A stretch of DNA of 14,996 bases from an uncultured Lysobacterales bacterium (GTDB lineage: Bacteria; Pseudomonadota; Gammaproteobacteria; Xanthomonadales; SZUA-36). Position 1 is the stretch's first letter. Every line of letters starts with the position of its first letter. Below the pieces are notes generated by a model that saw only the letters and a program-made list of their open reading frames with translations, had not been told where the DNA came from and did no database searches. The stretch is from NCBI GenBank assembly GCA_937995275.1, contig CALKKN010000308.1:1-14996 (forward strand). Reading direction: 5' to 3'. Both the position numbers and the translations under genes were made by a program. Positions 1 to 11,560 of the stretch are shown piece after piece.

Positions 1-125
1 TGATCAGCATGGTGGTCATGTTCTTCATGCACCAGCTCCAGCTGATCCAGGAACGGCTGGTGCTCGATACCTACGCCTACAGCGAGAACCGCCTGCTGCG
101 GTTCCTCAGGTCAGAGAACGTATGA
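1..125 (+). CDS. C-terminal end of an upstream membrane protein, possibly MotA/TolQ/ExbB-type channel subunit (partial)
   Basis: An open frame runs in from the left edge and stops at TGA 123-125, giving about 40 residues. It starts hydrophobic (ISMVVMFFM), as at the end of a membrane helix, and continues as a charged amphipathic helix with a YAYSENRLLRFLR tail. TolQ/ExbB-family proteins end in a similar way, with a cytoplasmic helix after the third membrane segment. The stop overlaps the next ATG (ATGA, 122-125), so the gene is translationally coupled to the operon. The family call is an inference. It rests on this short tail and on the ExbD-like helices encoded two and three genes downstream. 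A different polytopic membrane protein is possible. That a coding frame ends here is much more certain than its identity. Confidence 0.5.
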   Translation, partial: ISMVVMFFMHQLQLIQERLVLDTYAYSENRLLRFLRSENV

Positions 126-1390
126 AGATCGCCGCGCTGGAACTCAACGATCTGTCGCTACTGATCCAGGCCGAGGACGGTGCCCTGCATGCCGAACCCG
201 GCTATGCGCGCCTGACCACGGACGGCATCGTAACCGGCGAAGAAGCGCGCGCCGTGGCCTGGCGCGAGCCGCAGCACGTCTACAATCAGCACTGGTGCAA
301 CCTCAACCAGACCTCGCTGCCGATCCGGCACCGTTTCGCGAGGCACCATGCCGACATCGCTTTCGCGCAACTGCGCAGGCTCTGGCAGAACGCCGGCTCG
401 GCCGAATCGCTACTGGTGCTGGCGCCGGGCAGCTTCGCGGATGCGCAGCTCGCGCTGGTGCTGGGCATGATCGAGGCTCTGCCGTCGCGCACCGCCGCCG
501 TGGTGGACAGCGCGCTGGCGGCCTGCATGGACATCGAGGCGGACACGCTGTACATCGACCTGCAGATGCACGAGTCGGTGCTGACGGTCTGCCGGCCGCA
601 GGAGGGCTCGGTCGGCATCGTGGACCAGGAGATCTTCCCCGGCCTGGGCATGGTTCAGATTCAGAATTCCCTGGCCCGGCACATCAGCGACCTCCTGATC
701 GACAGCTACCGATTCGATCCGCTGCACTCGTCGGCGACCGAGCAGGCCATCTTCGACGAGATACCGCACTGGCTGACCCGCCTGCGCTGGGAACGGGACG
801 TCTCCATCAAGCTGGCCTCGGAAATGGGCGAGCACCCCTGCATCCTGCTTCGGGATGCCGTCCGGGCCCGGATCGGCGAACGGCTCGCGAGCGCGCGTTC
901 CTTTCTCGACAAGTGGCAGGGCTGCAACGTACTGCTGTCGCACGCCTCCAGCCTGTTGACGGGCCTGGCGGATGAATTCGAGGCCGCCGAGGTGATCGAC
1001 CAGACGACCACGACCCAGCGATGCCTCTCGCGCCATGCCGATATCCTGGAGCAGGTCGACGACCTGTACCGCCTGCGCTCCCTCGACCGCCCCGGTTCGA
1101 GTCCGGCCCCGACCGGGGAAATGAACGGGGACCGGCTCGCCACGCACCTGTTGTGCGGCGACCTGGCCCTGCCGCTGAGTAAGCCGGTCAGCATTCGCAT
1201 GGCGGAAGACGGTCCGTGGATGAGCAACGAACTCGATAAGGGCGCCGCGCTGACCGTGGTGCTGCGTAATCGCGTACTCGAGACGCTGCATCTCGGCGCG
1301 GACGTGTCGTTACCGCAAAGCTGCCGGGCCGGCGAGTCCATTCGTATCGGGGGCCACGAGCTGAAACTGATCCGGGTCGGCAATGATTAA
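122..1390 (+). CDS. Degenerate Hsp70/actin-fold (ASKHA) protein, envelope operon
   Basis: The 422-residue protein has no signal peptide or membrane segment, so it is probably cytoplasmic. Its layout resembles Hsp70-like ASKHA proteins. A first beta hairpin lies at about residues 2-16, a G-x-x-A style strand region at 25-50, and a PGSFADAQLALVLGM segment at 101-116. VVDSALAAC follows at 127-135, a second phosphate-type hairpin (TLYIDLQMHESVLTV) at 142-156, and an adenosine-site-like NVLLSHASSLLTGL at 269-282. The glycines that normally bind nucleotide phosphates in all three loops are missing, so ATPase activity is doubtful. Residues about 338-422 form a separate strand-rich tail ending in IRIGGHELKLIRV. 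The start overlaps the upstream stop (ATGA) and the end overlaps the next gene by 8 bases. The fold call is by pattern reading. The role in the operon, perhaps regulatory or scaffolding, is inferred. Confidence 0.55.
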   Translation: MKIAALELNDLSLLIQAEDGALHAEPGYARLTTDGIVTGEEARAVAWREPQHVYNQHWCNLNQTSLPIRHRFARHHADIAFAQLRRLWQNAGSAESLLVLAPGSFADAQLALVLGMIEALPSRTAAVVDSALAACMDIEADTLYIDLQMHESVLTVCRPQEGSVGIVDQEIFPGLGMVQIQNSLARHISDLLIDSYRFDPLHSSATEQAIFDEIPHWLTRLRWERDVSIKLASEMGEHPCILLRDAVRARIGERLASARSFLDKWQGCNVLLSHASSLLTGLADEFEAAEVIDQTTTTQRCLSRHADILEQVDDLYRLRSLDRPGSSPAPTGEMNGDRLATHLLCGDLALPLSKPVSIRMAEDGPWMSNELDKGAALTVVLRNRVLETLHLGADVSLPQSCRAGESIRIGGHELKLIRVGND

Positions 1391-2441
1391 GAACCGGCGA
1401 TTCACTGCCTTCAGCCTGTCCTTCTTGGACATCATGGCGTGCGGTTTCGGCGCGGTGACACTGCTGTTCCTGATCCTGCGCCACAGCGTGGTCGAGGAAG
1501 TGCAGCCCGATCCGAGGCTCAGCGCCGAGGTGGAGATGCTGAAGGAGGACGTCAGCGAGGCCGAGGAGGAGCGCAGCGACCTGCTGAACAGCATCGAGGA
1601 ACTCGAACTTCAGCTGGTCACCACTCAGGGCCTCAGCACGCGCTACCTGACCGAAGTAGAGGAAGTCGAAGAGAGCATCCAGTCAGACCCCGAGGAGCGC
1701 ATTGCCATGCTCCGCCGGCAGGTCGAGGAACTGGAGCGCGAGACGGCCGATATGGAAGAGGTCGAGTTCGGCGACAAGGTGCGCCAGTTCCTCGGCGATG
1801 GCAACCGGCAGTACCTCACCGGACTGGTGCTGGGCGGCGAACGGGTGATGATCCTGGTAGACGGCTCTGCAAGCATGCTGGCGGACACCGTCGTGAATGC
1901 CGTGCGGCGCCGCAACATGGAGCCCGAACGGCGGGTCGAGTCGCCCAAGTGGCAATGGACGGTGCGCACGGTCGAGTGGCTGCTGGCCCAGTTGCCGCCC
2001 AGCAGCCGCTTCCAGGTGTACATCTTCAACAGCCAGCCCGTCCCGGCCGTGGAAGGCAGCGAGGGCGAATGGCTGGATGCTGCCGACTCGCTGCAGCTCG
2101 AGGAGGCCGTCGAGGGCCTCAAAGCCTTCGCGCCTGACGGCGGCACCAGCCTCGAAAACGCACTCACGATGCTGAAGGACTTCACGGAAAAACCGGACAA
2201 CCTGTTCCTGCTGACCGACGGTTTGCCAACCCAGGGCAAGTCGCCGCCCGGTTCGGCCATGGTGAGCGGCGAAGAGCGCCGCCGCAACTTCCTCAGCGCG
2301 GTGGGACAGCTGCCGGCTGGCGTTCCCGTGAACACCATCCTGTTCCCGATGGAGGGCGACCCGGAAGCGGCAGCGCTGTTCTGGCAGTTCGCGATGGCCA
2401 CGAACGGCGCGTTCATCTCGCCCTCGAGGGACTGGCCATGA
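1383..2441 (+). CDS. Membrane-anchored vWA-domain protein with ExbD-like N-terminal helix (first paralogue)
   Basis: The protein has 352 residues. A short basic N-terminus is followed by one membrane helix (about 13-32) with the motif SFLDIMACGFGA. Asp16 lies at the start of the helix, as does the ion-binding Asp of ExbD/TolR/MotB. Residues about 42-128 are Glu/Arg-rich and read as a coiled coil, followed by a linker. A von Willebrand A domain then runs from about 153 to the end. Its metal site looks complete: DGSAS at 160-164, Thr255 in DGGTS, and Asp279 in TDG. The likely topology is N-terminus in the cytoplasm and coiled coil plus vWA domain in the periplasm. The gene overlaps its upstream neighbour by 8 bases and its downstream neighbour by ATGA. 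Assignment to the vWA superfamily is firm. The function, periplasmic metal-dependent protein binding coupled to a motor-like helix, is inferred. Confidence 0.85.
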   Translation: MIKNRRFTAFSLSFLDIMACGFGAVTLLFLILRHSVVEEVQPDPRLSAEVEMLKEDVSEAEEERSDLLNSIEELELQLVTTQGLSTRYLTEVEEVEESIQSDPEERIAMLRRQVEELERETADMEEVEFGDKVRQFLGDGNRQYLTGLVLGGERVMILVDGSASMLADTVVNAVRRRNMEPERRVESPKWQWTVRTVEWLLAQLPPSSRFQVYIFNSQPVPAVEGSEGEWLDAADSLQLEEAVEGLKAFAPDGGTSLENALTMLKDFTEKPDNLFLLTDGLPTQGKSPPGSAMVSGEERRRNFLSAVGQLPAGVPVNTILFPMEGDPEAAALFWQFAMATNGAFISPSRDWP

Positions 2442-3427
2442 TCAAGCGGCGCCGCGGCACGCTGGAAGCCAGCGTCTCTTTCCTGGATGTAATCAGCTGC
2501 GGTTTCGGCGCCATCGTGCTGCTGCTGATAATTGCCCCGGTGGGCGACCCGGTGGCCCTCGAGGAAGCGGAGACGAATCTGCAGGCCATCGTCCAGCAAC
2601 TGACCGAACGGCTGTTCGACGCCCGTGGCGAATCGGTGGTGCTGAGCGAGGACCTGAAGTCGCGCAAGGAGCAACTGTCGGACCTCGAAAAGCGCGTCGC
2701 CCGACTCAAAGCCCAGCTGGCCAGCGTCGAGAAACAGTCCCGCGAGATCGCGCAATCCAAAATCGTCGAGGAGGAGCAACTCAAGCTGGCGCTGCAGGTG
2801 CTGACCGAGGAAATGGAGCGGCTGGTGCCGCAGGACAGTGTCAAGAACCAACTCATTGGCGGCGTGCCGGTAGACAGCGAGTATGTAATTTTCGTGATCG
2901 ACACTTCCGGCAGCATGCAAATGGCGGCCTGGCGCCGGCTGCAGAAGGAAATGCTGAACATTCTCAACATCTATCCCACCGTGAAAGGCATCCAGGTGAT
3001 GAACGATATGGGGCAATACATGTTTCCGGGCACCCGCAGGGCCTGGATGAACGACAGTCCCCAGACCCGCAACCGGATCATGAACGCTCTTGATACGTGG
3101 GGGCCGTTCAGCAATTCCAGCCCGGTCGAAGGAATCAACGCCGCCATCCAGTCTTACTATCGGCCGGACCGCAAGATCAGTATCTACACGCTGGGGGATG
3201 ACTTCTCCGGGCGATCGATCCGGGCCGTGGTGAAGGCCGTGGACAACCTCAACCAGGCCCACCGCGGCGCCGAACGCCTGGTGCGAATCCACGCGATCGG
3301 CTTCCCGGTGCATTTCACGCGCGGGCAGACGCCCAGCGAGTCGGCCATCAAATTTGCGGCGTTGATGCGCGAGCTCAGCTACAACAACGGCGGCACCTTC
3401 ATTGGACTGACCAGCCTGCAACCGTAA
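2438..3427 (+). CDS. Membrane-anchored vWA-domain protein with ExbD-like N-terminal helix (second paralogue)
   Basis: This 329-residue protein has the same architecture as its upstream neighbour. A basic N-terminus leads into a membrane helix at about 14-33 with SFLDVISCGFGA. Asp17 is at the ExbD-like position and the segment matches the neighbour closely. A coiled coil spans about 41-128. The vWA domain begins with VIFVIDTSGSM (MIDAS Asp155, Ser157, Ser159). The other MIDAS positions differ from the standard. The usual threonine region reads SNSSPVEGI (about 225-233), so a serine may replace Thr, and the TDG strand reads LGDD (252-255). An insert rich in Met and aromatic residues (about 186-205) follows the first helix. 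The start is coupled by ATGA to the previous stop. The shared N-terminus suggests that duplication produced the pair and that the products work together, perhaps as a heterodimer. That last point is inference. Confidence 0.83.
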   Translation: MIKRRRGTLEASVSFLDVISCGFGAIVLLLIIAPVGDPVALEEAETNLQAIVQQLTERLFDARGESVVLSEDLKSRKEQLSDLEKRVARLKAQLASVEKQSREIAQSKIVEEEQLKLALQVLTEEMERLVPQDSVKNQLIGGVPVDSEYVIFVIDTSGSMQMAAWRRLQKEMLNILNIYPTVKGIQVMNDMGQYMFPGTRRAWMNDSPQTRNRIMNALDTWGPFSNSSPVEGINAAIQSYYRPDRKISIYTLGDDFSGRSIRAVVKAVDNLNQAHRGAERLVRIHAIGFPVHFTRGQTPSESAIKFAALMRELSYNNGGTFIGLTSLQP

Positions 3428-3466
3428 TGCGCATGGGGAGATTGGCCTGAGCAGCCGAACCACAAC

Positions 3467-4081
3467 ATGAAATATTGCAGGTACATAACCGGTCTGCTGG
3501 TATTGACGATGGCCTCGATGGCCGGCTGTGCCACGACCCTCAATGTCGACGTCGAGCAAACGTTTCCGGAGGTCGTGGCGGAACCCCGCGATCTGAGCGC
3601 AACACTCGTGATGGATCAGGAATTCCGCACCTACCAGGCACAGCCCAATGCCAAGACCCGGATTCAGATCGGGCAGCCGCAGGTCGACCTGATGACCAAG
3701 GCATTCAGCGGGTTGTTCGCCGAGGTAATGGTGGTATCCTCCAGGGAACAGGTGAGGCCCGGTACGGATCTCGTAATCATCCCGTCGGTGCGGGAAGTTC
3801 AGCTTTCCACGCCGTCGGAGTCCTATCTCAACGTGTATGAGGTGTGGATCAAATACAATCTCGACATCGAAACCGGCGATGGGGTGCCAGTCGACAGCTG
3901 GTTCCTGCCCGCGTATGGAAAAACGCCATCGTCCTATTTGCTTTCCCGAACCACGGCGATCGAGGACGCAACCATCGTCGCGCTGCGCGACGCGGGCGCG
4001 AAGCTGATGCTGGACTTTTACAGGATTCCGGCAATCAACGGCTGGCTGCAGCAACAAGCAGCCTTGCAGGCAGAATCGTGA
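3467..4081 (+). CDS. Outer-membrane lipoprotein of unknown function (first of pair)
   Basis: The protein has 204 residues. A basic N-terminus and a hydrophobic stretch lead to the lipobox MAGC, with Cys21 as the predicted lipidated residue. The residue after Cys is Ala, not Asp, which by the Lol sorting rule favours the outer membrane. The mature part alternates strands and helices. One recognisable stretch is TDLVIIPSVREVQL (about 103-116). The C-terminal helical part is AIEDATIVALRDAGAKLMLDF. The shape is reminiscent of small envelope lipoproteins such as those with a LpoB/CsgG-like fold, but I do not recognise the family. The gene follows the second vWA gene after 39 bases with no strong ribosome site close to the ATG; the GGGGAG at 3435-3440 is too far away. 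Its stop overlaps the GTG start of the next lipoprotein. It is probably an outer-membrane partner of the vWA proteins. Confidence 0.75.
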   Translation: MKYCRYITGLLVLTMASMAGCATTLNVDVEQTFPEVVAEPRDLSATLVMDQEFRTYQAQPNAKTRIQIGQPQVDLMTKAFSGLFAEVMVVSSREQVRPGTDLVIIPSVREVQLSTPSESYLNVYEVWIKYNLDIETGDGVPVDSWFLPAYGKTPSSYLLSRTTAIEDATIVALRDAGAKLMLDFYRIPAINGWLQQQAALQAES

Positions 4082-4740
4082 CGTACCGGACGCTCACAGC
4101 GCTGGTGGGGGCACTGGCTCTGGCCGGATGCGCGTCCACGACGACCGTCGACGACTACCGGCCCACCAGCGAGCCCATCGACATCGAGCCGGGCGAGAAG
4201 GTGGCGATCCTCGGGCGTCGCGACGCCGGGCATTACGAGACCGACACCGATTTCGTGGAGTGCCTGGCCGACAGGATGGGCCAGTCGGATTTCCAGATCA
4301 TGTCGGAACAGGAATTCATCGATGCGCTGTATCCGTGGTTCGAGCCTCGGACCGCGCCCAAGCATCTCAAGCGTCTCCAGCGCCTCATGCAGGAACCCGT
4401 ACTCCAGGAGAAGATTCGCGAGGAAAATCTTCGCTACCTGGTCTGGCTCGACGGTGAGGTGGAATCGCACGGCGCCACCGGGGCCATGAGCTGCGGGATG
4501 GGACCGACGGGCGCGGGGTGTTTCGGTTACACCTCCTGGGACAAGGAGGCGGTGTTCGAAGCCATCGTGTGGGATCTCGTGGACCTGACCGAGGAAGCCC
4601 GCATCCAGGTGGATTCGGAGGGCACGTCGTATGTAATCGGCATCGTGGCGCCGATCCCTTTGTTGACCCGGGTGGAGAGCCAGGCCTGCTCGGGCCTGGG
4701 CAAACAGCTGCGGTCCTATTTTTCCCATGAGGGTCGGTGA
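4078..4740 (+). CDS. Outer-membrane lipoprotein of unknown function (second of pair)
   Basis: I place the start at GTG 4078, which overlaps the upstream stop (GTGA) and gives 220 residues opening with a good lipoprotein signal. The hydrophobic ALVGALALAGC ends in a lipobox with Cys18, followed by Ala, consistent with outer-membrane sorting. A longer open frame reaches upstream to 3844, but that part runs inside the previous gene and lacks export features. The mature protein reads as an alpha/beta domain: GEKVAILGRRD (about 38-48), then a helix, then a conserved-looking EQEFIDALYPWFEPRTAP (about 80-97), then NLRYLVWLDGEVE. The layout is like the N-terminal domain of TolB or CsgG/LpoB-type lipoproteins, though no specific family is claimed. 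Several cysteines follow (about 141-152 and near the C-terminus) and could form periplasmic disulfides. Its end overlaps the protease gene by 14 bases. Confidence 0.75.
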   Translation: MTYRTLTALVGALALAGCASTTTVDDYRPTSEPIDIEPGEKVAILGRRDAGHYETDTDFVECLADRMGQSDFQIMSEQEFIDALYPWFEPRTAPKHLKRLQRLMQEPVLQEKIREENLRYLVWLDGEVESHGATGAMSCGMGPTGAGCFGYTSWDKEAVFEAIVWDLVDLTEEARIQVDSEGTSYVIGIVAPIPLLTRVESQACSGLGKQLRSYFSHEGR

Positions 4741-6145
4741 GTTTCCCCGTCGCGGCCGCACGGCCCTTGCGGTCCTCGCCCTGCTCCTGGCCGCGCCCGC
4801 GTTCGGCGGCCCCGGGGGCAAGGAGATCCATGCCGAAATGCTGGCATCGGTCGGGGCCTACGACGACCCCGAACTGACCGCCTACCTGGAGGGCCTCGTC
4901 GGCGAGATCGTCTCGGTGTCGGAAATGTCCGGCGACGCATTCATCTTTACTTTGCTCGACTCGCCGGAGCTCAATGCCTTCGCCACCGCGGACAACTACG
5001 TTTATCTGAACCGGGGCCTGCTCAACTTCATGGCAAACGAGGCGCAGTTGGTCTCCGTGCTGGCGCACGAGGTCGGCCACATCACCCAGAAACACGTCAG
5101 CCTGATGCCCGTTGCCGCCGGCGGCGCGAGTTTCCTCGCGTGGCTGGCCGGGGCCCTGTCGGGCAGCCCGGAGGTGTACCAGGCCGGCATGGAGTACGCG
5201 AATTCCCTGCTCAAGGGTCATGGCCGCGACAACGAACTGGACGCCGACGAGGCGGCCGCCCGGTACATGGTGAGGCTTGGCTACGACCCGGACGAGATGC
5301 TCGAAATGCTCGGGACCATGAAGGATCTCGAGACGATGCAGAAAGAACGTGCCGCGCAGCAGGGCGTGCGGCGTTCATACCACGGCCTGTTCGCCTCGCA
5401 TCCCCGCAACGACACCCGCCTGCGCAGCGCCGTCGGCAGGGCCAAGACCGAGGACTCGCCGGCCACCCGCGGCTCGGGTGAGACCCGCTATCGCCAGCTG
5501 ACCGAGGGGCTGGTTTGGGGGGAGAATTTCAAGGAAAAGGACCCGAAGCCGGAGCGCTACTCCGACATGACGCTGCGGGTACGCTTCGATTTTCCCGATG
5601 GCTGGACCCAGAGCAAGGACGACCAGACACGGCTGGTCTCCGGCGAACCTGAGGGTGGCGCGGCCCGCCTGAGCATGCAGCCGCATCCGCGCACTCCGCA
5701 GACGGCGGAGGAGTATCTCTACAACTACCTCGACATTGAACACCTCCGTGACGGCCGCGAGATCAGTCCGGCGCGGTTGAAGGGTTTTACCGGCATCCTG
5801 CCCGGTACAGGGGGCAACCCCGACCGGCGCATCGCGGTGGTCTATTACAAGTTGAATGCCTACCTGTTCACCGGCGAGGTCAGCAGGCAGGACGAGTTCG
5901 GCGAATTCGATGCGCTGTTCCTGGACTCCATCGACACGTTCCGGCCGATCTCCAGCCGCGAGATCGAAGGCCAGAAGCCGCAAACCATCCATTACGTGAA
6001 AGCCACCGAGGCGACCACCTTCACCGCCCTGGGTGAGCACCTGGGGCTGGACGAATACGAAGTGCAGGACCTGCGTCTGATCAACGGCTACTACCCGACC
6101 GGAGAACCCAGGCCCGGCGAATGGATCAAGATCTTCAGGCAATGA
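4727..6145 (+). CDS. Secreted M48-family zinc metalloprotease with LysM-like C-terminus (BepA-like)
   Basis: The 472-residue protein starts with a cleavable signal peptide: positive residues at 2-11, a hydrophobic core at 12-26, and likely cleavage near AFG/GPG. The peptidase domain has the signature HEVGH at 114-118 and a downstream NELDAD (169-174). The Glu170 there is the probable third zinc ligand, as in M48 proteins such as BepA and LoiP. ELNAFATADNYVYLNRGLL just before the active site is typical of the family. A glycine-rich loop at about 130-148 may be a membrane-proximal hydrophobic segment. Residues about 266-400 form a second domain of unknown type. The last 50 residues (TFTALGEHLGL, LRLINGY, PGEWIKIF) look like a LysM peptidoglycan-binding module. 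It probably acts in the periplasm on envelope proteins, and the lipoprotein neighbours are plausible substrates or partners. The start overlaps the upstream gene by 14 bases. Confidence 0.9.
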   Translation: MRVGEFPRRGRTALAVLALLLAAPAFGGPGGKEIHAEMLASVGAYDDPELTAYLEGLVGEIVSVSEMSGDAFIFTLLDSPELNAFATADNYVYLNRGLLNFMANEAQLVSVLAHEVGHITQKHVSLMPVAAGGASFLAWLAGALSGSPEVYQAGMEYANSLLKGHGRDNELDADEAAARYMVRLGYDPDEMLEMLGTMKDLETMQKERAAQQGVRRSYHGLFASHPRNDTRLRSAVGRAKTEDSPATRGSGETRYRQLTEGLVWGENFKEKDPKPERYSDMTLRVRFDFPDGWTQSKDDQTRLVSGEPEGGAARLSMQPHPRTPQTAEEYLYNYLDIEHLRDGREISPARLKGFTGILPGTGGNPDRRIAVVYYKLNAYLFTGEVSRQDEFGEFDALFLDSIDTFRPISSREIEGQKPQTIHYVKATEATTFTALGEHLGLDEYEVQDLRLINGYYPTGEPRPGEWIKIFRQ

Positions 6146-6978
6146 GCAGACCTGTTTTTGTGATCGGCTCCCCGAGATCCGGGACGAGCATCCTGACCTG
6201 GAGCCTGGGCCAGCACCCGAACCTCTACCCACTCGAGGAAACGGTCTGGTTCGGCCCGTTCGGGCGCGCGGCTGAGAAGGCCTTCGAAATCGGTTCGTCG
6301 CGGGGCGAGTTTTCACAGCTCAGCGGCATGGGCGTCACGGAGGAGCGTTTCATGCGCGGGCTGGGGGCGGCAATCGACACGCTGATCCTCGAGCATCGGT
6401 CGTGGCCCGAACATGATGTGGCAGAGGACAATCCCTTCGCCCGGGCCCGCCGCACGGGCGACCCGAAGCAGCGATGGGTCGACGGCACGCCCGAAAACTC
6501 CCATTGCGTGAGTCAGCTGACTGCCCTGTTCCCGGAGGCCCGTTTCATTCACCTGCTGCGTGACCCTGCTGCGGTGGTGCGCTCGCTCGGAAACTTCGAC
6601 AGGGTTGGCGGCGAACCGCAGCAGGCGGACGACGCCTGCCGGCAGTGGTTGCGCCACGTCAAGCCCTGTCTGGACGCCGAGCGCAGCCTGCCGCCCGAAA
6701 CGGTCATGCGGCTTGCGCATGCCGACCTGGACAGCAGCCCTGAGCCGTCCCTGCGCCGGTGCCTGGAATTCCTGGGCGAGCCGTGGAGCGCCGATTGCCT
6801 CAAGCCGCTCGGGCACCGTATCAACAGCTCGGCGCCGCGTGATCCGGAGGCAACCATCCACGTGGACGCGAACCTGTTGGCCGAGGCACGCAGCATCTGT
6901 GCGGAGGCGGGTCTTGATCCACCCGATTCCATGGTCGGACGGGAGGATTCCGAAGCTTCACGGGAACACGTTGCCTGA
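6142..6978 (+). CDS. Sulfotransferase family protein (PAPS-dependent), substrate unknown
   Basis: I choose ATG 6142, which overlaps the protease stop (ATGA). An in-frame ATG at 6121 would add seven residues before the nucleotide loop. The 278-residue protein begins at once with the beta strand and PAPS-binding loop VFVIGSPRSGTS (5'-phosphosulfate loop at about 9-16). The second signature, FIHLLRDPAAVVRSL (about 135-149), is the 3'-phosphate-binding region, and Ser148 is the likely contact. A C-terminal helical part contains SSPEPSLRRCLEFLGEPW, a common pattern in this family. The enzyme would move sulfate from PAPS to a hydroxyl or amine of a carbohydrate, lipid, peptide or small molecule; the sequence does not say which. 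There is no signal peptide, so it is cytoplasmic. It is translationally coupled to an envelope protease operon, which hints at sulfation of an envelope component, but this is inference. Confidence 0.85.
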   Translation: MSRPVFVIGSPRSGTSILTWSLGQHPNLYPLEETVWFGPFGRAAEKAFEIGSSRGEFSQLSGMGVTEERFMRGLGAAIDTLILEHRSWPEHDVAEDNPFARARRTGDPKQRWVDGTPENSHCVSQLTALFPEARFIHLLRDPAAVVRSLGNFDRVGGEPQQADDACRQWLRHVKPCLDAERSLPPETVMRLAHADLDSSPEPSLRRCLEFLGEPWSADCLKPLGHRINSSAPRDPEATIHVDANLLAEARSICAEAGLDPPDSMVGREDSEASREHVA

Positions 6979-7101: not shown

Positions 7102-7572
7102 ATGATTCGTTTCACTGTAAACAGGCGGCCCGTGTCCTTCGACGGGCCCGACGACACACCGTTGCTGTGGGTGCTGCGCGACCACCTCAAGCTGACCGGC
7201 GCCAAGTACGGCTGCGGCATAGGTCGCTGCGGCGCCTGTACCGTGCACGTCGGCGGCGAGGCGACCACAGCCTGCACCTTGCGGGTGGGCGCGCTCGACG
7301 GGGCCGAGGTGCTGACCATCGAAGGCCTCGCCGGGCCCCAGGGCGACTTGCACCCGGTCCAGCAAGCCTGGCTCGACGAGGACGTACCGCAATGCGGCTA
7401 CTGCCAGCCCGGGCAAATCATGGCAGCCGTGGACCTGTTGTCGAGAAAGCCCGTTCCCAGCGATGCGGACATCGAGCGTCACATGAGCAACCTGTGCCGT
7501 TGCGGCACCTACGTCCGCATCCGCAAGGCGATCCATCGCGCCGCGGGGCTGCTGGCGGGTAGCCCGTCATGA
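7102..7572 (+). CDS. [2Fe-2S] small subunit of a molybdenum hydroxylase (isoquinoline 1-oxidoreductase alpha type)
   Basis: The 156-residue protein is a complete xanthine-oxidase-family iron-sulfur subunit. A plant-type ferredoxin domain occupies about 1-75 with cysteines at 38, 43, 46 and 58 (CGIGRCGAC, then C). An all-helical second [2Fe-2S] domain has CGYC (98-101) and CRC (132-134). All eight ligands are present and the length matches the family (about 150-160). It passes electrons from the molybdenum centre in the large subunit to an outside acceptor. There is no signal peptide, so if the complex is periplasmic this subunit must be co-exported with the Tat-tagged large subunit. The start has a GGAG ribosome site six bases upstream. 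The stop overlaps the large-subunit start (ATGA). The true substrate, an N-heterocycle or aldehyde, cannot be read from this subunit. Confidence 0.95.
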
Positions 7573-9836
7573 GCCGGCGGCGGCAAATCGACGAGGCCGT
7601 CGATCTCGGCCGGCGCCGGCTGCTGATCGGGGGTCTGACGGCCGGCGGCGGCTTCCTGCTCGGATTTCCCGCGATGCATTGGGCCGGCGACAGCCCCGAG
7701 GACGCCAATGGCGGACAGATCGGATTTTTCGTGGAGATACGCCCCGACAACCAGGTCGTGATCGGCGTGGCGCAACCCGAAATCGGTCAGGGTGTCCGTA
7801 CCTCTATGCCGATGCTGGTGGCCGAGGAACTGGATGTGGAATGGTCCTCGGTCAGCATCCGCCAGATGCCCCTCGGCATCGTCAAGACCGCGGACGGCTT
7901 TGCCTGGAAATACGGCGGCCAGGGCGCCGGCGGCAGCACCAGCGTCACCGACAACTGGACCTATCTCCGCGAGGTCGGCGCGACCGCGCGCCAGATGCTG
8001 GTGCAGGCAGCCGCGAATCAGTGGAAGACCTCGCCCGACCAATGCCGCACGGAACCCGGCTGGGTGATCTGTGATTCGCGCGGCCAACGGGCCAGCTACG
8101 CTTCCCTGGCCGCCGCGGCGGCAGCGCTGCCGGTGCCGGACGGCAAGCCGGACCTCAAGGAAGCCTCTTCGTTCCGCATCATCGGCCAGGCGGCGAAGGT
8201 GATGGACGCCCGTGCGATCGTCACCGGCCGGGCGCAGTACGGTATCGATACGGATCGGCCCGGCATGCGCTATGCGGTCATCCAGCGATGCCCGTTTCTT
8301 GACGGCACCGTTGTGTCCTTCGACGACAGCGAGGCGCGCAAGGTGCCGGGCGTGCTGGATGTATTCACCATCGACGGGCCGAAGCCCGGTGAACCCTACG
8401 TGATACTGGCCAGCGGGATCGCGATCGTCGCCACCTCGACCTGGGCCGCGATGCAGGGGCGCGAGGCTCTGCAGATCGAGTGGGACCGCGGACCCCATGC
8501 TCAGGAAAACACCCCGGCTTTCTGGCGCCAGGCCGAGACACTGCTGGCTGGCACGGGTCAGGTCGTCCGGACTGACGGCGATTTCGACGCCTCCGCGGGA
8601 ACGGCCGAGCAGGTCGTCACGGCGCGCTATCGGGTGCCGTTCGTCAACCACGCGCCAATGGAGCCCCAGAACTGCTTCGCCCACGTGCGCGAGGACGGGG
8701 CCGATATCATCGCGCCCACGCAAATGCCGGCCGGGGCAAGCCGGGCGGTCGCAGCGGTGACCGGATTGCCGCGCGAGAACATCCGGGTGGAGATGACCAT
8801 GGCCGGCGGCGGCTTCGGACGCCGGCTGACCAACGACTACGTGGCCGAGGCCGCGATGATCTCGAAACGCATCGGGGCGCCGGTGAAGTTGCAGTGGAGC
8901 CGCGAGGATGACGTCCGCCACGATTTCTACCGGCCTTCCGGCCTCCACGAAATGAAGGCCGCCCTCGACGATGACGGCCGGATTACCGCCTGGACGCAGC
9001 GGCTGGCGAGCGCCGGCAAGTACTACCGCCGCCCGAACGTCAAGCCCGAGGAACAATACGCCCCCGAACTCTATGTGGACGACTTTCCGGCCGGCATCGT
9101 CGAGAATCTGCGGGTCGAGTGGTTCGAGGTGCAGTCGGGGGTGCCGCGCGGATCCTGGCGCGCGCCCGCACACACCGCCAACGCGTTCGTCGTCCAGTCC
9201 TTCCTGGACGAAATTGCGCATGCCACCGGGCGTGATCCGCTGCAGATGCGGCTCGAAATGTACGGCGAGAATCGCGACCTGCCCTATGGCCAGCACGGCG
9301 GCCCGGTGTTCAATCCCTGGCGGCTGTCGCGGTTGTTGAAACATGTCGCCGCCCGCATCGATTACGATCGCCGGCGGCCGGAAGGCCGGGGTGTCGGCCT
9401 CGCATCGCATTTCACGTTTGGCGGCTACGCCGCCCACGCCGTCGAAGTTTCGGTGGGCAGCCGGGGCGAGTTGAACGTGGAGCGTATCGTGGCAGCCGTG
9501 GATTGCGGCGCGGTAGTCAATCCGCTGGGGGTCGACGCGCAGCTGCAGGGCGGCACGATTGACGGTTTGAGCACCGCGCTGAACCTGGAAATCACGGTTC
9601 GCGACGGCCAGATCGAACAAAGCAATTTCCACAATTACCGACTGCTCGGGCTGAAGGACGTGCCAGTCGATTTCGAGACGCACATTCTCCCGTGGGGCGA
9701 CAAGCCGGCCGGCATGGGCGAGATCGGGCTGCCCAGTCTGGCGCCCGCGCTCACCAATGCGATCTTCAGGGCCTCGGGCGTGCGGATTCGCGCGCTGCCG
9801 ATCGGCAAACAGCTGCAGGAGGCGATTCGGGCCTGA
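7569..9836 (+). CDS. Molybdopterin-binding large subunit (isoquinoline 1-oxidoreductase beta type), Tat-exported
   Basis: The 755-residue protein opens with a twin-arginine signal. GRRRLLIGG (14-22) is followed by a glycine/alanine/leucine-rich hydrophobic core to about residue 36. It belongs to the IorB-like branch of the xanthine oxidase superfamily, which carries the cofactor in one chain without an FAD domain. Visible family landmarks are the cofactor-contact segment GGQGAGGST (116-124), HAPMEPQN (361-368), GGGFGRR (413-419), [10 protein letters not shown] (about 535), and near the C-terminus GMGEIGLP, whose Glu718 is the predicted catalytic base. The enzyme would hydroxylate an N-heteroaromatic ring or oxidise an aldehyde with water as oxygen source. 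The start overlaps the small-subunit stop by ATGA. No maturation genes (XdhC/MocA-like) or cytochrome partner follow, so those must lie elsewhere. The exact substrate is unknown. Confidence 0.93.
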
Positions 9837-9856: not shown

Positions 9857-9900
9857 TCAGGGTAAAGCGCCGGTACAGTTACTCAGGCACTTTACCCTGA
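9857..9900. repeat. 15-bp inverted repeat between convergent genes, probable two-way terminator or REP-like element
   Basis: The left arm TCAGGGTAAAGCGCC (9857-9871) and right arm GGCACTTTACCCTGA (9886-9900) are inverted copies that match at 14 of 15 positions. The one mismatch still pairs as a G-U wobble in RNA. The loop is 14 bases. The element lies between the convergent large-subunit and phosphatase genes, and the right arm contains the phosphatase stop codon and last two codons. There is no clear T-run. Similar arms beginning TCAG-x-GTAAAG are, as far as I recall, dispersed in other marine gammaproteobacterial genomes, which would fit a REP-like repeat. That recollection is unverified. 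Confidence 0.7.
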
Positions 9901-10422
9901 TCGTTTCAGCGAACGCGCCCGGGTCAGGGAAAGCAGTTGACCGGTCCCGGCGCCGAGTTCGGTCCAGGGGACGCCGATCCGCAGCCTGGCGACGGCGGCA
10001 GTCGGCATCAGCTTGCCGTCGGCTGGTCTGGGCACCCTGCCCTCGCTCAGGGTTTCGACCAGGTCTTCGAGGCCCGGGTTATGGCCGGCAATCATCACGC
10101 GCCGCGCTTCGGCGGGACTCTCCCGCAGCACTTCGATCAGGTCCCGTGTCCAGCCGCCGTAAACCCGTTCATCCCAGCAAATGCGCTGCGCCTCGACGCC
10201 CAGTTTGCGGCAGACCAGCATCACGGTCTGCTTCGCCCGCAGCGCCGGCGAACTGACGACGTAGTCCGGAATCAGGCCTTGCTCGAAGAGCCACCGGCCG
10301 ACGCGCGGGGCGGCTTTCTCGCCGCGTTTGGCCAGCGGCCGCTCGAAGTCGGAAGGGGCGCCCGTGTCCCAGGCGGACTTCGCGTGCCGAAGTATGAGCA
10401 GTTCATGGTCCATGCGGGTCAT
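9892..10422 (-). CDS. sixA: SixA-like phosphohistidine phosphatase (histidine phosphatase superfamily)
   Basis: The 176-residue protein has the SixA form of the RHG motif, LILRHAKSAW (about 8-17), where His12 is the nucleophile. The second catalytic histidine lies in MIAGHNPGLEDL (about 110-121). Between them SSPALRAKQT (58-67) is another family hallmark. SixA removes phosphate from histidine of phosphotransfer proteins: in E. coli it acts on ArcB and on the nitrogen PTS protein NPr. The length is close to the family norm (about 160). The start could be ATG 10422 or the in-frame ATG 10413, which puts the protein start right at the first strand (MDHELLIL). Neither has a good ribosome site. The stop codon and final residues are encoded by the right arm of the inverted repeat at 9857-9900, so the tail may have been altered by that element. 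Only 38 bases separate it from the divergent gene. Confidence 0.88.
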   Translation of the reverse strand: MTRMDHELLILRHAKSAWDTGAPSDFERPLAKRGEKAAPRVGRWLFEQGLIPDYVVSSPALRAKQTVMLVCRKLGVEAQRICWDERVYGGWTRDLIEVLRESPAEARRVMIAGHNPGLEDLVETLSEGRVPRPADGKLMPTAAVARLRIGVPWTELGAGTGQLLSLTRARSLKRSG

Positions 10423-10460: not shown

Positions 10461-10781
10461 TTGAAGGAACAGCTGCCCCTGGCCACATTGGAAAATTTGA
10501 TGCATCCGCATGGTTTGACCCGCCGTCGCTTTGTCGCCGCCGCGCTGGCCGCGCAGTCCGGCGGCCGCTGGCAGGATCTGGATGCCGCGGCACAGATCGA
10601 GGCCATGCGCGGCCTCGGGAACGAGGCCTTTTTTGCCGCCATCCAGAACCAGGTGCGGGCCGGGATCTACATGGGGGCTGCGTACTGGAAACACGTCGGC
10701 TATCCCGGTCCGTCGAAGGACTTCGGCGGTTACCTGAGGCGCGGCGCCGGCGAAATCGACTGGTTGGGGGAGGATTCCTGA
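10461..10781 (+). CDS. Short gluconate 2-dehydrogenase subunit 3-like protein (truncated)
   Basis: The frame gives 106 residues from a TTG at 10461. An ATG at 10500 (residue 14) would give 93 residues and place a Tat-like start, LTRRRFVAAALAA, at the very N-terminus. The C-terminal part (NEAFFAAIQNQVRAGIYMG, YWKHVGYPGPS, and GGYL with IDWL) matches the end of gluconate-2-dehydrogenase subunit 3-type proteins, which help export and assemble a GMC-type flavoenzyme. Such proteins are usually about 170-240 residues, so the N-terminal half is missing here. The stop overlaps the ATG of the GMC gene (TGATG), which fits its usual partner. The neighbouring GMC gene is also shortened, so the pair looks degraded. 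Start choice and function remain uncertain. Confidence 0.6.
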   Translation: MKEQLPLATLENLMHPHGLTRRRFVAAALAAQSGGRWQDLDAAAQIEAMRGLGNEAFFAAIQNQVRAGIYMGAAYWKHVGYPGPSKDFGGYLRRGAGEIDWLGEDS

Positions 10782-11560
10782 TGGCGCGCCGCTACGAACT
10801 GGACGATGAATCCGTCGTTGTCGTGATCGGCTCCGGCGCCGGGGGCGGTACGGTAGCCAGCGAACTGGCCCAGAAGGGTGTCGACGTCGTCTGCCTGGAA
10901 GCCGGCGGCCGGCTGACGCTGGCCATCATGCCCGGCCCCGTGGATTTCCATCGCGGCACGCGGCAATCGGGGCTCATCCTGGATGAGCAACGCCACGACG
11001 ACTCACGCGGCTTCGCGGGCGGCTACATCGTCGAGACCGGGGCCGACCAGCCCTATGGCATCGCCGCCATTCTCGGCGGCTGGGGCGAGGATGTCGCGGA
11101 TTTCCTCGAGCACTACCGCAACCTGGCCGGCTGCTGGATCACCGGCGAGGACCCGCCCGAAGCGCACAATCGGATTACCCTGCACCCCACCGAGCGGGAC
11201 GCCCACGGCCTGCCCGTGCCGGTGCTCGAGTACCGGGATCATGCCAACTCCGTGGCGATGAAGGAACACGCCCGGCGGCAAGGCGAGCGTATTTACGAAT
11301 CGCTGGGCGCCAGGCGAATCGCGTCCCGGCCGAATGTCGGCCACGGTTGCCACAACATGGGGGTGGCGCGGATGAGCGAGCGCCCCGCCGACGGCGTCAC
11401 CAACCGCTGGGGCCGCCTGCACGAGATGCCCAACCTCTTCGTCAGCGACGGCAGCCTGTTTCCCAGCAGCGCCGCCCCCAACCCGACACTGACCATCGTC
11501 GCCCTGGCCATCCGGCAGGCTGAGCACATCGCGGACACCATGGCGCGGCGCGAAATTTGA
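10781..11560 (+). pseudogene. GMC oxidoreductase (gluconate 2-dehydrogenase large-subunit type) with large in-frame internal deletion
   Basis: The start is ATG 10781, preceded by a strong ribosome site (GGGGGAGG, 10766-10773). The same frame is open back to 10457, but that part overlaps the subunit-3 gene. The 259-residue product has a normal FAD-binding N-terminus: GSGAGGG at 17-23, then VVCLEAG with Glu40 for the ribose. After about residue 45 it jumps to IMPGPVDFHRGT, a segment that in full-length relatives (about 520-590 residues) lies hundreds of residues later. The C-terminal GMC domain is then intact: GHGCHNMG with His191, and PNPTLTIVALA with Asn234 as the probable catalytic pair. The missing middle holds the GG-type FAD motif and most of the substrate domain, so activity is unlikely. 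The frame is kept, so this could be a decayed gene, a real small protein, or an assembly error. I label it a pseudogene on that balance. Confidence 0.7.

Follow-up and report, generated by a model that had tools for sequence, protein, structure and literature searches.

What is built by a tightly packed run of genes that encodes the tail of a putative channel subunit, an Hsp70-like (ASKHA) protein, two vWA proteins, two lipoproteins and an M48 protease? The question is raised by the first part of a 14,996-nucleotide contig from an uncultured Lysobacterales bacterium (G000:C308; the whole contig is the stretch analyzed and is called the window below), which belongs to a metagenome-assembled genome (MAG) of 2.59 Mb and 78% completeness. 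An earlier reading made from the letters of the window (the original prediction) had proposed a trans-envelope machine whose products act together. Comparative sequence analysis points to a real, conserved, multi-gene envelope system that seems to be widespread in bacteria and has a probable mechanism, and we put at roughly 60% the chance that the operon encodes an ion-driven trans-envelope motor with a heterodimeric vWA axle. As far as our searches reach, the colinear accessory set, the nesting of its modules and the degenerate Hsp70-like subunit are apparently new, the core having been proposed in 2025.

A colinear gene set around paired vWA genes

The run of genes is the 3' half of a longer operon, with at least six further genes upstream. 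A check of the open reading frames bore out the predicted coordinates, frames and starts, and six of the seven junctions overlap. The stop/start overlaps at 122 (ATGA), 1383, 2438 (ATGA), 4078 (GTGA), 4727 and 6142 (ATGA) are real, and the single gap is a spacer of 39 bases (3428–3466) 5' of LP1, the first lipoprotein gene. Gene content and order were observed in a one-genome-per-species scan for relatives of the second vWA protein (vWA2), which gave at least 576 loci. The best 80 of these, which are the closest relatives by construction, underlie all counts out of 80 given here and the counts derived from them for loci "with room", that is, loci with space for a gene beyond the nearest found neighbor, all others being excluded. 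Some of the 80 are the same contigs as separately sampled genomes (e.g., locus L048 and genome G007), and L089 and L096 were omitted from the building of upstream profiles (runs of X). The labels of the 80 were recognized as gammaproteobacterial, except for one plain "Proteobacteria".

Nine genes, encoding a TPR protein, a protein with PEGA and formylglycine-generating enzyme (FGE) folds, the channel subunit, the Hsp70-like protein, vWA1, vWA2, the lipoproteins LP1 and LP2, and the M48 protease, were all present in 64 of the 80 loci and were colinear in 64/64. The labels of this block include Porticoccaceae, Halieaceae, Microbulbifer, Thalassomonas, Colwellia, and Pseudoalteromonas. The original prediction had called for a survey of the neighborhood of the two vWA genes, and there the set recurs as a unit; with vWA2 50–80% identical and the order repeated in named loci, the gene set is not a chance array. 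Among loci with room, the upstream genes encode a low-complexity lipoprotein (48/48), a large (lipo)protein (65/65), the TPR protein (67/67), the PEGA/FGE protein (70/70), and a small protein (71/72), followed by the channel (72/72), the Hsp70-like protein (72/73), LP1 (79/79), LP2 (77/77), and the M48 protease (68/71), while vWA1 was seen in 80/80 vWA2 loci (76/76 with room). The sulfotransferase at the 3' end of the run, which had been counted as a member, was rejected as one, since a search with a single-sequence profile found it in 0/80 relatives (0/69 with room for it). The proposal that the products act together is partly supported by a set that recurs as a unit; it had included this outside gene and missed at least six upstream genes, and some of its modules are dispensable.

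The predicted motor and its partners

The two vWA proteins are homologous over their full length (hhalign 100%, E 7.8e-78). In Pfam, vWA1 matches VWA_2 (PF13519, 1.2e-6) and VWA_3 (1.9e-6), and the vWA match of vWA2 falls below the cut-off (VWA_3, 0.0016); a PDB search with the vWA2 profile gave no credible match. Each of the two window proteins has one hydrophobic stretch over threshold, near its start, which contains the helix motif S-F-L-D-(I/V)-x-x-C-G-F-G, and a slightly looser form of this motif with the Asp is present in 136 of 137 unique vWA1 homologues and in 116 of 119 unique vWA2 homologues. The helix is followed by about 90–100 charge-rich residues with a heptad periodicity that was matched by 2 of 1000 shuffles for vWA1 and 11 of 1000 for vWA2; the coiled-coil matches of window proteins in Pfam, NCBIfam, and PADLOC were dismissed as evidence of homology. 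The first metal-binding loop of the vWA head, DxSxS, is kept in both proteins (vWA1 135/137, vWA2 118/119). Of the earlier description of the pair as twin ExbD-like vWA proteins, the N-terminal helix with its conserved Asp stands, and the likeness is limited to that helix: the ExbD/TolR domain (PF02472) gave no Pfam match in vWA1 or vWA2 and was not found among the Pfam-scanned operon proteins, a scan that stopped short of the flanking genes.

The first gene of the window, cut by the contig end, had been suggested to encode a MotA/TolQ/ExbB-type channel, and this is now confirmed. The 40 residues that can be read are similar to the C-terminal ends of the MotA/TolQ/ExbB-family proteins that relatives encode at this position, and homologues from there match PF01618 (2.1e-14). 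A co-binned contig, C100 (L202, 1–4088), carries part of the TPR gene, the PEGA/FGE gene, a gene for a small protein whose N-terminus looks like a signal, the full length of a MotA-type gene (PF01618, 5.5e-14), and the start of the Hsp70-like gene. Because C100 overlaps window positions 1–150 at only 87.3% identity over those 150 bases, it was ruled out as the true upstream neighbor; it seems to be a near relative's copy binned with the window, in which case the MAG mixes two close genomes here. In the channel homologues, Thr occupies the G-T-V ring site in 107/107 unique sequences and the N-x-T ring site in 103 of the 107 by pattern and in the other 4 by eye. In structures of ExbBD and MotAB, the Asp of the axle helix faces the Thr of the ring. 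Such a facing arrangement of helix Asp and ring Thr is stated for vWA proteins of this kind in one paper (PMC12204202, section 8). Since vWA1 and vWA2 both have an ExbD/MotB-like helix with a near-invariant Asp, a coiled coil, and a vWA head, the two probably pair as a heterodimer to make the axle of an ion-driven motor of 5:2 stoichiometry.

We infer the assembly, stoichiometry, ion coupling, partners, and places in the cell as follows. Five MotA/TolQ-type subunits would ring one vWA1 and one vWA2, the Asp of each axle helix would take up a proton (or Na+) opposite the ring Thr, and ion flow would turn or swing the axle. The predicted coiled coil would pass this motion to the two vWA heads. 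At the peptidoglycan or the outer membrane, the heads would hold or let go of their partners, namely the PEGA/FGE-fold protein, the lipoproteins, and the TPR proteins. On the cytoplasmic face, the role of an adaptor or regulator would fall to the Hsp70-like protein, and the M48 protease might trim or quality-control outer-membrane parts.

A relationship of the Hsp70-like protein to Hsp70 is supported at the profile level. A profile of 95 homologues aligned with DnaK by hhalign at 80% probability (E 1.4e-5) over 239 colinear columns and at 43% on trimmed columns, while the controls (the columns shuffled 40 times, the profile read in reverse, and the vWA2, M48, and TPR profiles of the operon) stayed at or below 0.3%. 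MreB against DnaK, the positive control, reached 96.8%, and PilM, a true relative of DnaK, reached only 0.2% against it, so that misses in this comparison mean little. Pfam HSP70 did not match any of 20 members, which gave stray matches only (best E 0.032), and the window protein has no Pfam family match. The original ASKHA call keeps support from the profile comparison with DnaK. The phosphate loop DLGGGT is replaced by DLQMHES in the window and by DLQMSES in an aligned relative, and the loop glycines are absent in the alignments. The protein, which appears from these alignments to be degenerate with its nucleotide-binding loops lost, is named a pseudo-Hsp70 because of the lost phosphate loop. 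Its one borderline hydrophobic stretch (residues 97–115) is taken for protein core, presumably not membrane. The tail may be FHA-like (46% against one small FHA-like set, 7% against another). An FHA-like N-terminus also occurs on the PEGA/FGE protein in 7/16 frames whose own stretch lacks the Hsp70-like gene vs 3/97 whose stretch has it; these counts keep duplicates, and L185, which belongs to the 16, comes from a genome that carries the Hsp70-like gene elsewhere. Pfam FHA reached E 0.045 in one of the six scanned PEGA/FGE proteins with such an N-terminus. These counts hint that one cytoplasmic module replaced another.

The remaining parts are predicted envelope proteins. In LP1, Cys21 is invariant in 16/16 sequences and a lenient lipobox pattern is present in 90/96 homologues; in LP2, Cys18, 62, 139, 148, and 204 are invariant in 16/16 and the lipobox pattern is present in 83/93. 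Neither the 90 nor the 83 have Asp at +2, and in Escherichia coli the lack of Asp at +2 is a pointer to the outer membrane. Pfam gave chance-level matches for window LP1 and LP2 and nothing for their alignments, and PDB searches with their profiles gave no credible match. The large upstream protein compares with LP1 at 53% (profile comparison); it has a lipobox pattern in 47/66, and no match to it was found in the window's own MAG. The protease, predicted earlier to bind peptidoglycan, is an M48 enzyme (PF01435, 9.6e-28; HExxH in 80/80 unique homologues) with no Pfam support for peptidoglycan binding; PsbP-like matches below the cut-off follow the M48 domain in 2/3 relatives scanned and in 0 cases in the window protein. 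The PEGA/FGE protein of relatives matches PF03781 (2.1e-41), and the C100 copy has one N-terminal helix. A catalytic Cys is typical of formylglycine-generating enzyme. None was found in the RG[AGS]SW segment of 10/10 sequences with the segment (11 examined), and with Cys missing in these relatives a catalytic FGE was rejected.

Modules across genomes

The nesting of modules was observed in 369 evenly sampled gammaproteobacterial genomes (vWA2 threshold E 1e-20). vWA2 was present in 28/369, the Hsp70-like gene in 18/369, all 18 within those 28, and LP2 in 13/369, of which 11 lay within the 18 with the Hsp70-like gene (hypergeometric co-occurrence 8e-24 for Hsp70-like/vWA2 and 6e-15 for LP2/Hsp70-like, genome relatedness ignored). 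In the window's own family, a close vWA2 (E <1e-80) was found in 20/39 genomes, G000 included. Flanks were read in 15 of these 20 genomes, in the class except G191 and G355, and in the phylum except 9 of 16 hits (G000 among these). The channel gene lies on 14/15 family, 23/25 class, and 7/7 phylum stretches fetched, two of the three misses being cut contigs, and in G129 and G352 it is placed after vWA2.

Genomes of the family (G023, G034) and of the class (G398, G243, G157, G221) have core-only loci, without Hsp70-like, LP1, LP2, and M48 genes; these loci encode the low-complexity lipoprotein, the large protein, the TPR and PEGA/FGE proteins, the MotA-type channel, vWA1, and vWA2. The Hsp70-like gene is also absent from the family loci of G033 and G035, the latter ending before the downstream genes. 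In a family of another class, which holds 13 of the 16 vWA2 hits among 398 sampled phylum genomes, the Hsp70-like gene is missing in 5/5 stretches (L257, L258, L259, L260, L263), and the three of these with downstream sequence have no LP1, LP2, or M48. Because such loci exist, the Hsp70-like, LP1, LP2, and M48 genes are dispensable add-on modules. The original prediction had held that the vWA genes should not occur without the other members; they do occur without these four, and hardly without the channel. Positions vary as well: LP2 is placed 5' of the operon in G055, G313, and G013, and in G205 both LP1 and LP2 are on another contig.

A more specific proposal, to which we give somewhat less than even odds, is that of a distinct gammaproteobacterial ion-driven trans-envelope machine, built in layers, whose axle is a vWA heterodimer and whose cytoplasmic clutch is a dead Hsp70. 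The core motor would have come first, then the pseudo-Hsp70, and then an outer-membrane module of the lipoproteins, a TPR protein with a TonB-like C-terminal domain (TPR-TonB-like), and M48. If this is true, the evolutionary steps of a layered machine can be read from living genomes.

Three side observations concern the modules. The compact version in the other class, without the Hsp70-like gene, is a possible transfer. The LP1/LP2 pair may live outside the motor, given LP2-like genes without vWA2 in two genomes (G122, G202). In addition, the window's family has a second twin-vWA cluster (G000:C217 = L040; L045, L046), in which the paired vWA proteins have the helix motifs SAVDLFA/SAIDLFA. It also encodes a MotA-type channel, FHA proteins, and a protein kinase, and CHAT-TPR and Usp genes lie nearby. 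A match to vWA2 at E ≤0.001 was obtained in 7 further family genomes, four of which were read, and these four carry this second type.

Coordinates of the features assigned in the window, with the basis of each assignment.
Feature	Position	Strand	Basis
Last 40 residues of a channel subunit of the MotA/TolQ/ExbB type, 5'-cut by the contig end	3..125	+	likeness to the C-termini of complete MotA-type proteins encoded at the same position
Degenerate Hsp70-like (ASKHA) protein, thought to be cytoplasmic; FHA-like tail uncertain	122..1390	+	hhalign against DnaK
vWA1: transmembrane helix, periplasmic coiled coil, vWA head (predicted)	1383..2441	+	PF13519, helix motif, heptad periodicity
vWA1 Asp16 codon (near-invariant residue of the helix predicted to cross the pore)	1428..1430	+	helix motif in homologues
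vWA2: architecture as vWA1, homologous to vWA1	2438..3427	+	hhalign, helix motif, weak Pfam vWA
vWA2 Asp17 codon (residue of the helix predicted to cross the pore)	2486..2488	+	helix motif in homologues
LP1 lipoprotein, lipobox Cys21 codon 3527–3529	3467..4081	+	lipobox pattern
LP2 lipoprotein, GTG start, lipobox Cys18 codon 4129–4131, four more invariant Cys	4078..4740	+	lipobox pattern
Exported M48 metalloprotease, HEVGH codons 5066–5080	4727..6145	+	PF01435, HExxH
Sulfotransferase, overlapping neighbor outside the conserved system	6142..6978	+	PF13469, 9.4e-31

Downstream of these genes, window positions 7102–9836 encode a two-gene molybdenum hydroxylase (2Fe-2S and molybdopterin subunits); a gene for a flavin subunit is found neither between the two nor immediately behind them. 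A histidine phosphatase (PF00300), presumably of SixA-like length, lies at 9892–10422 on the minus strand, and a frame for a GMC-type oxidoreductase of 259 amino acids at 10781–11560 has a start that binds flavin adenine dinucleotide (FAD) and a GMC C-terminal domain, its middle looking as if missing.

Alternative readings and known systems

Several results weigh against the ion-driven motor as set out above. The Hsp70 likeness comes from profile comparison (80%/43%), the same profile reaches only 0.3% against MreB and 0.1% against PilM, and the PDB profile search ranks Hsp70 first at only E 0.19. The coiled-coil PDB matches have E 0.02 or worse, the complete channel of C100 has two, not three, hydrophobic stretches at the threshold used, and the other metal-loop residues are less uniform by strict pattern, both in vWA1 ([GD]GT[SND] 67/137, TDGLP 108/137) and in vWA2 (SNSSP 109/119, GDxF 107/119). 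At the level of gene content, the 16 kb read around the vWA pair of G251 contain no channel gene (that genome has 11 channel-family members elsewhere), L057 (a SAR92 MAG) has LP1, LP2, and M48 with no Hsp70-like gene between channel and vWA1, three named loci are without M48, and G122 (L265) and G202 (L264) have LP2-like genes with no vWA2 match, G202 with an LP1-like gene as well. The profile search of genomes scores few candidates per genome, which makes the absences in the samples uncertain, and no phenotype for the system was found in the literature searched. As a guess, its job is envelope maintenance or outer-membrane transport. To our knowledge, few 5:2 ion-driven motors have known jobs, and a motor with a heterodimeric axle and binding heads that is kept as one colinear block makes its cultured hosts worth choosing for deletion work.

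The alternative that survives best keeps the motor and gives it another job, surface movement or the traffic of adhesins or secreted cargo, with the vWA heads pushing cargo along the envelope. In AglRQS-Glt of myxobacteria and GldLM with T9SS of Bacteroidota, a motor of the TolQ/MotA type is likewise linked to components in the periplasm and outer membrane, and PEGA, vWA, and the FGE fold when it has no catalytic Cys serve in binding. In addition, gliding is suggested for another vWA family in PMC12204202. This job is nevertheless unlikely: the Pfam-scanned operon proteins (flanking genes outside the annotation) include no secretin, porin, or barrel family, and the literature searched gave no phenotype.

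That there is no single machine, and that the cluster holds envelope genes acting separately under shared regulation, is very improbable: core-only loci, the off-contig LP1 and LP2 of G205, and the LP2-like genes without vWA2 (G122, G202) show that the modules are separable, yet colinearity in 64/64 and near one-way nesting are better fitted by a core machine with add-ons. Just as improbable is a TonB-like energizer, in which the vWA proteins would replace ExbD and hand force to the TPR-TonB-like protein. The TonB_C matches of that protein (PF03544) are weak (E 0.005 and 0.016) and lie below the curated cut-off; its gene was seen in 46/80 named loci (only one with full room for it, most of the others too short to judge), and the sampled genomes show it mainly together with LP2, but it was not seen near many full-core loci and is thus not a universal output unless located elsewhere. 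Zorya-type anti-phage defense, in which the channel would sense envelope damage and trigger an effector, recalls the coupling there of a MotA-type channel to a one-helix periplasmic partner and the kinase, FHA, and CHAT genes of the second cluster, but it has only a slim chance and was rejected as the leading reading on the PADLOC result: six window proteins (the channel not among them) gave coiled-coil matches only and no Zor model. No nuclease family was found among the operon proteins scanned with Pfam, and gene order is the same over many genera.

The ion-driven motor with a paired vWA axle can be set beside several known systems. Like ExbBD-TonB and TolQRA-Pal, it would have a TolQ/ExbB-family ring and a one-helix partner with an Asp and would carry force to the outer membrane, and TPR and lipoprotein genes occur near Tol-Pal genes as they do near the operon here; unlike them, its vWA proteins lack an ExbD/TolR domain and carry their heads on coiled coils, and it has Hsp70-like and M48 members. 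Zorya ZorAB shares the MotA-type channel with a one-helix partner and differs in that the six window proteins without the channel gave no PADLOC Zor match. The DnaK nucleotide-binding domain resembles the pseudo-Hsp70 in the 239-column colinear profile match and differs in that the phosphate loop is replaced and no Pfam HSP70 match was obtained. In MoxR-vWA ternary conflict systems, vWA, FGE-fold, PEGA, and FHA domains recur (PMC7159879), whereas no MoxR AAA+ ATPase was found among the scanned operon proteins and the main text of that paper contains neither MotA nor ExbD.

The closest known system is the TPH-vWA cluster. A motor with paired vWA proteins, driven by proton motive force and left without a name, has been proposed (Williams-Jones et al., 2025; PMC12204202, section 8), the seed of the cluster being from Idiomarina. 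Among open-licence literature, no other paper's title or abstract start describes the gene set, and the available part of PMC12905483, which cites that study, makes no mention of vWA. The main text of PMC12204202 is without PEGA, sulfatase, formylglycine, M48, Hsp70, or ATPase, so that the accessory set and its nesting are not in that text. The original statement that no named system has this exact set accordingly stands for the full set, and the motor with paired vWA proteins had already been described, unnamed. What defines the TPH-vWA cluster, as given in that paper, is a TolQ-like gene beside a heterologous vWA pair, with a helix Asp and a ring Thr and with TolR, ExbD, and MotB genes missing next to it. 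PF02472 gave no match here in the operon proteins that the Pfam scan covered, and the operon likewise has a tolQ-like neighbor, a heterologous vWA pair, and the conserved helix Asp and ring Thr.

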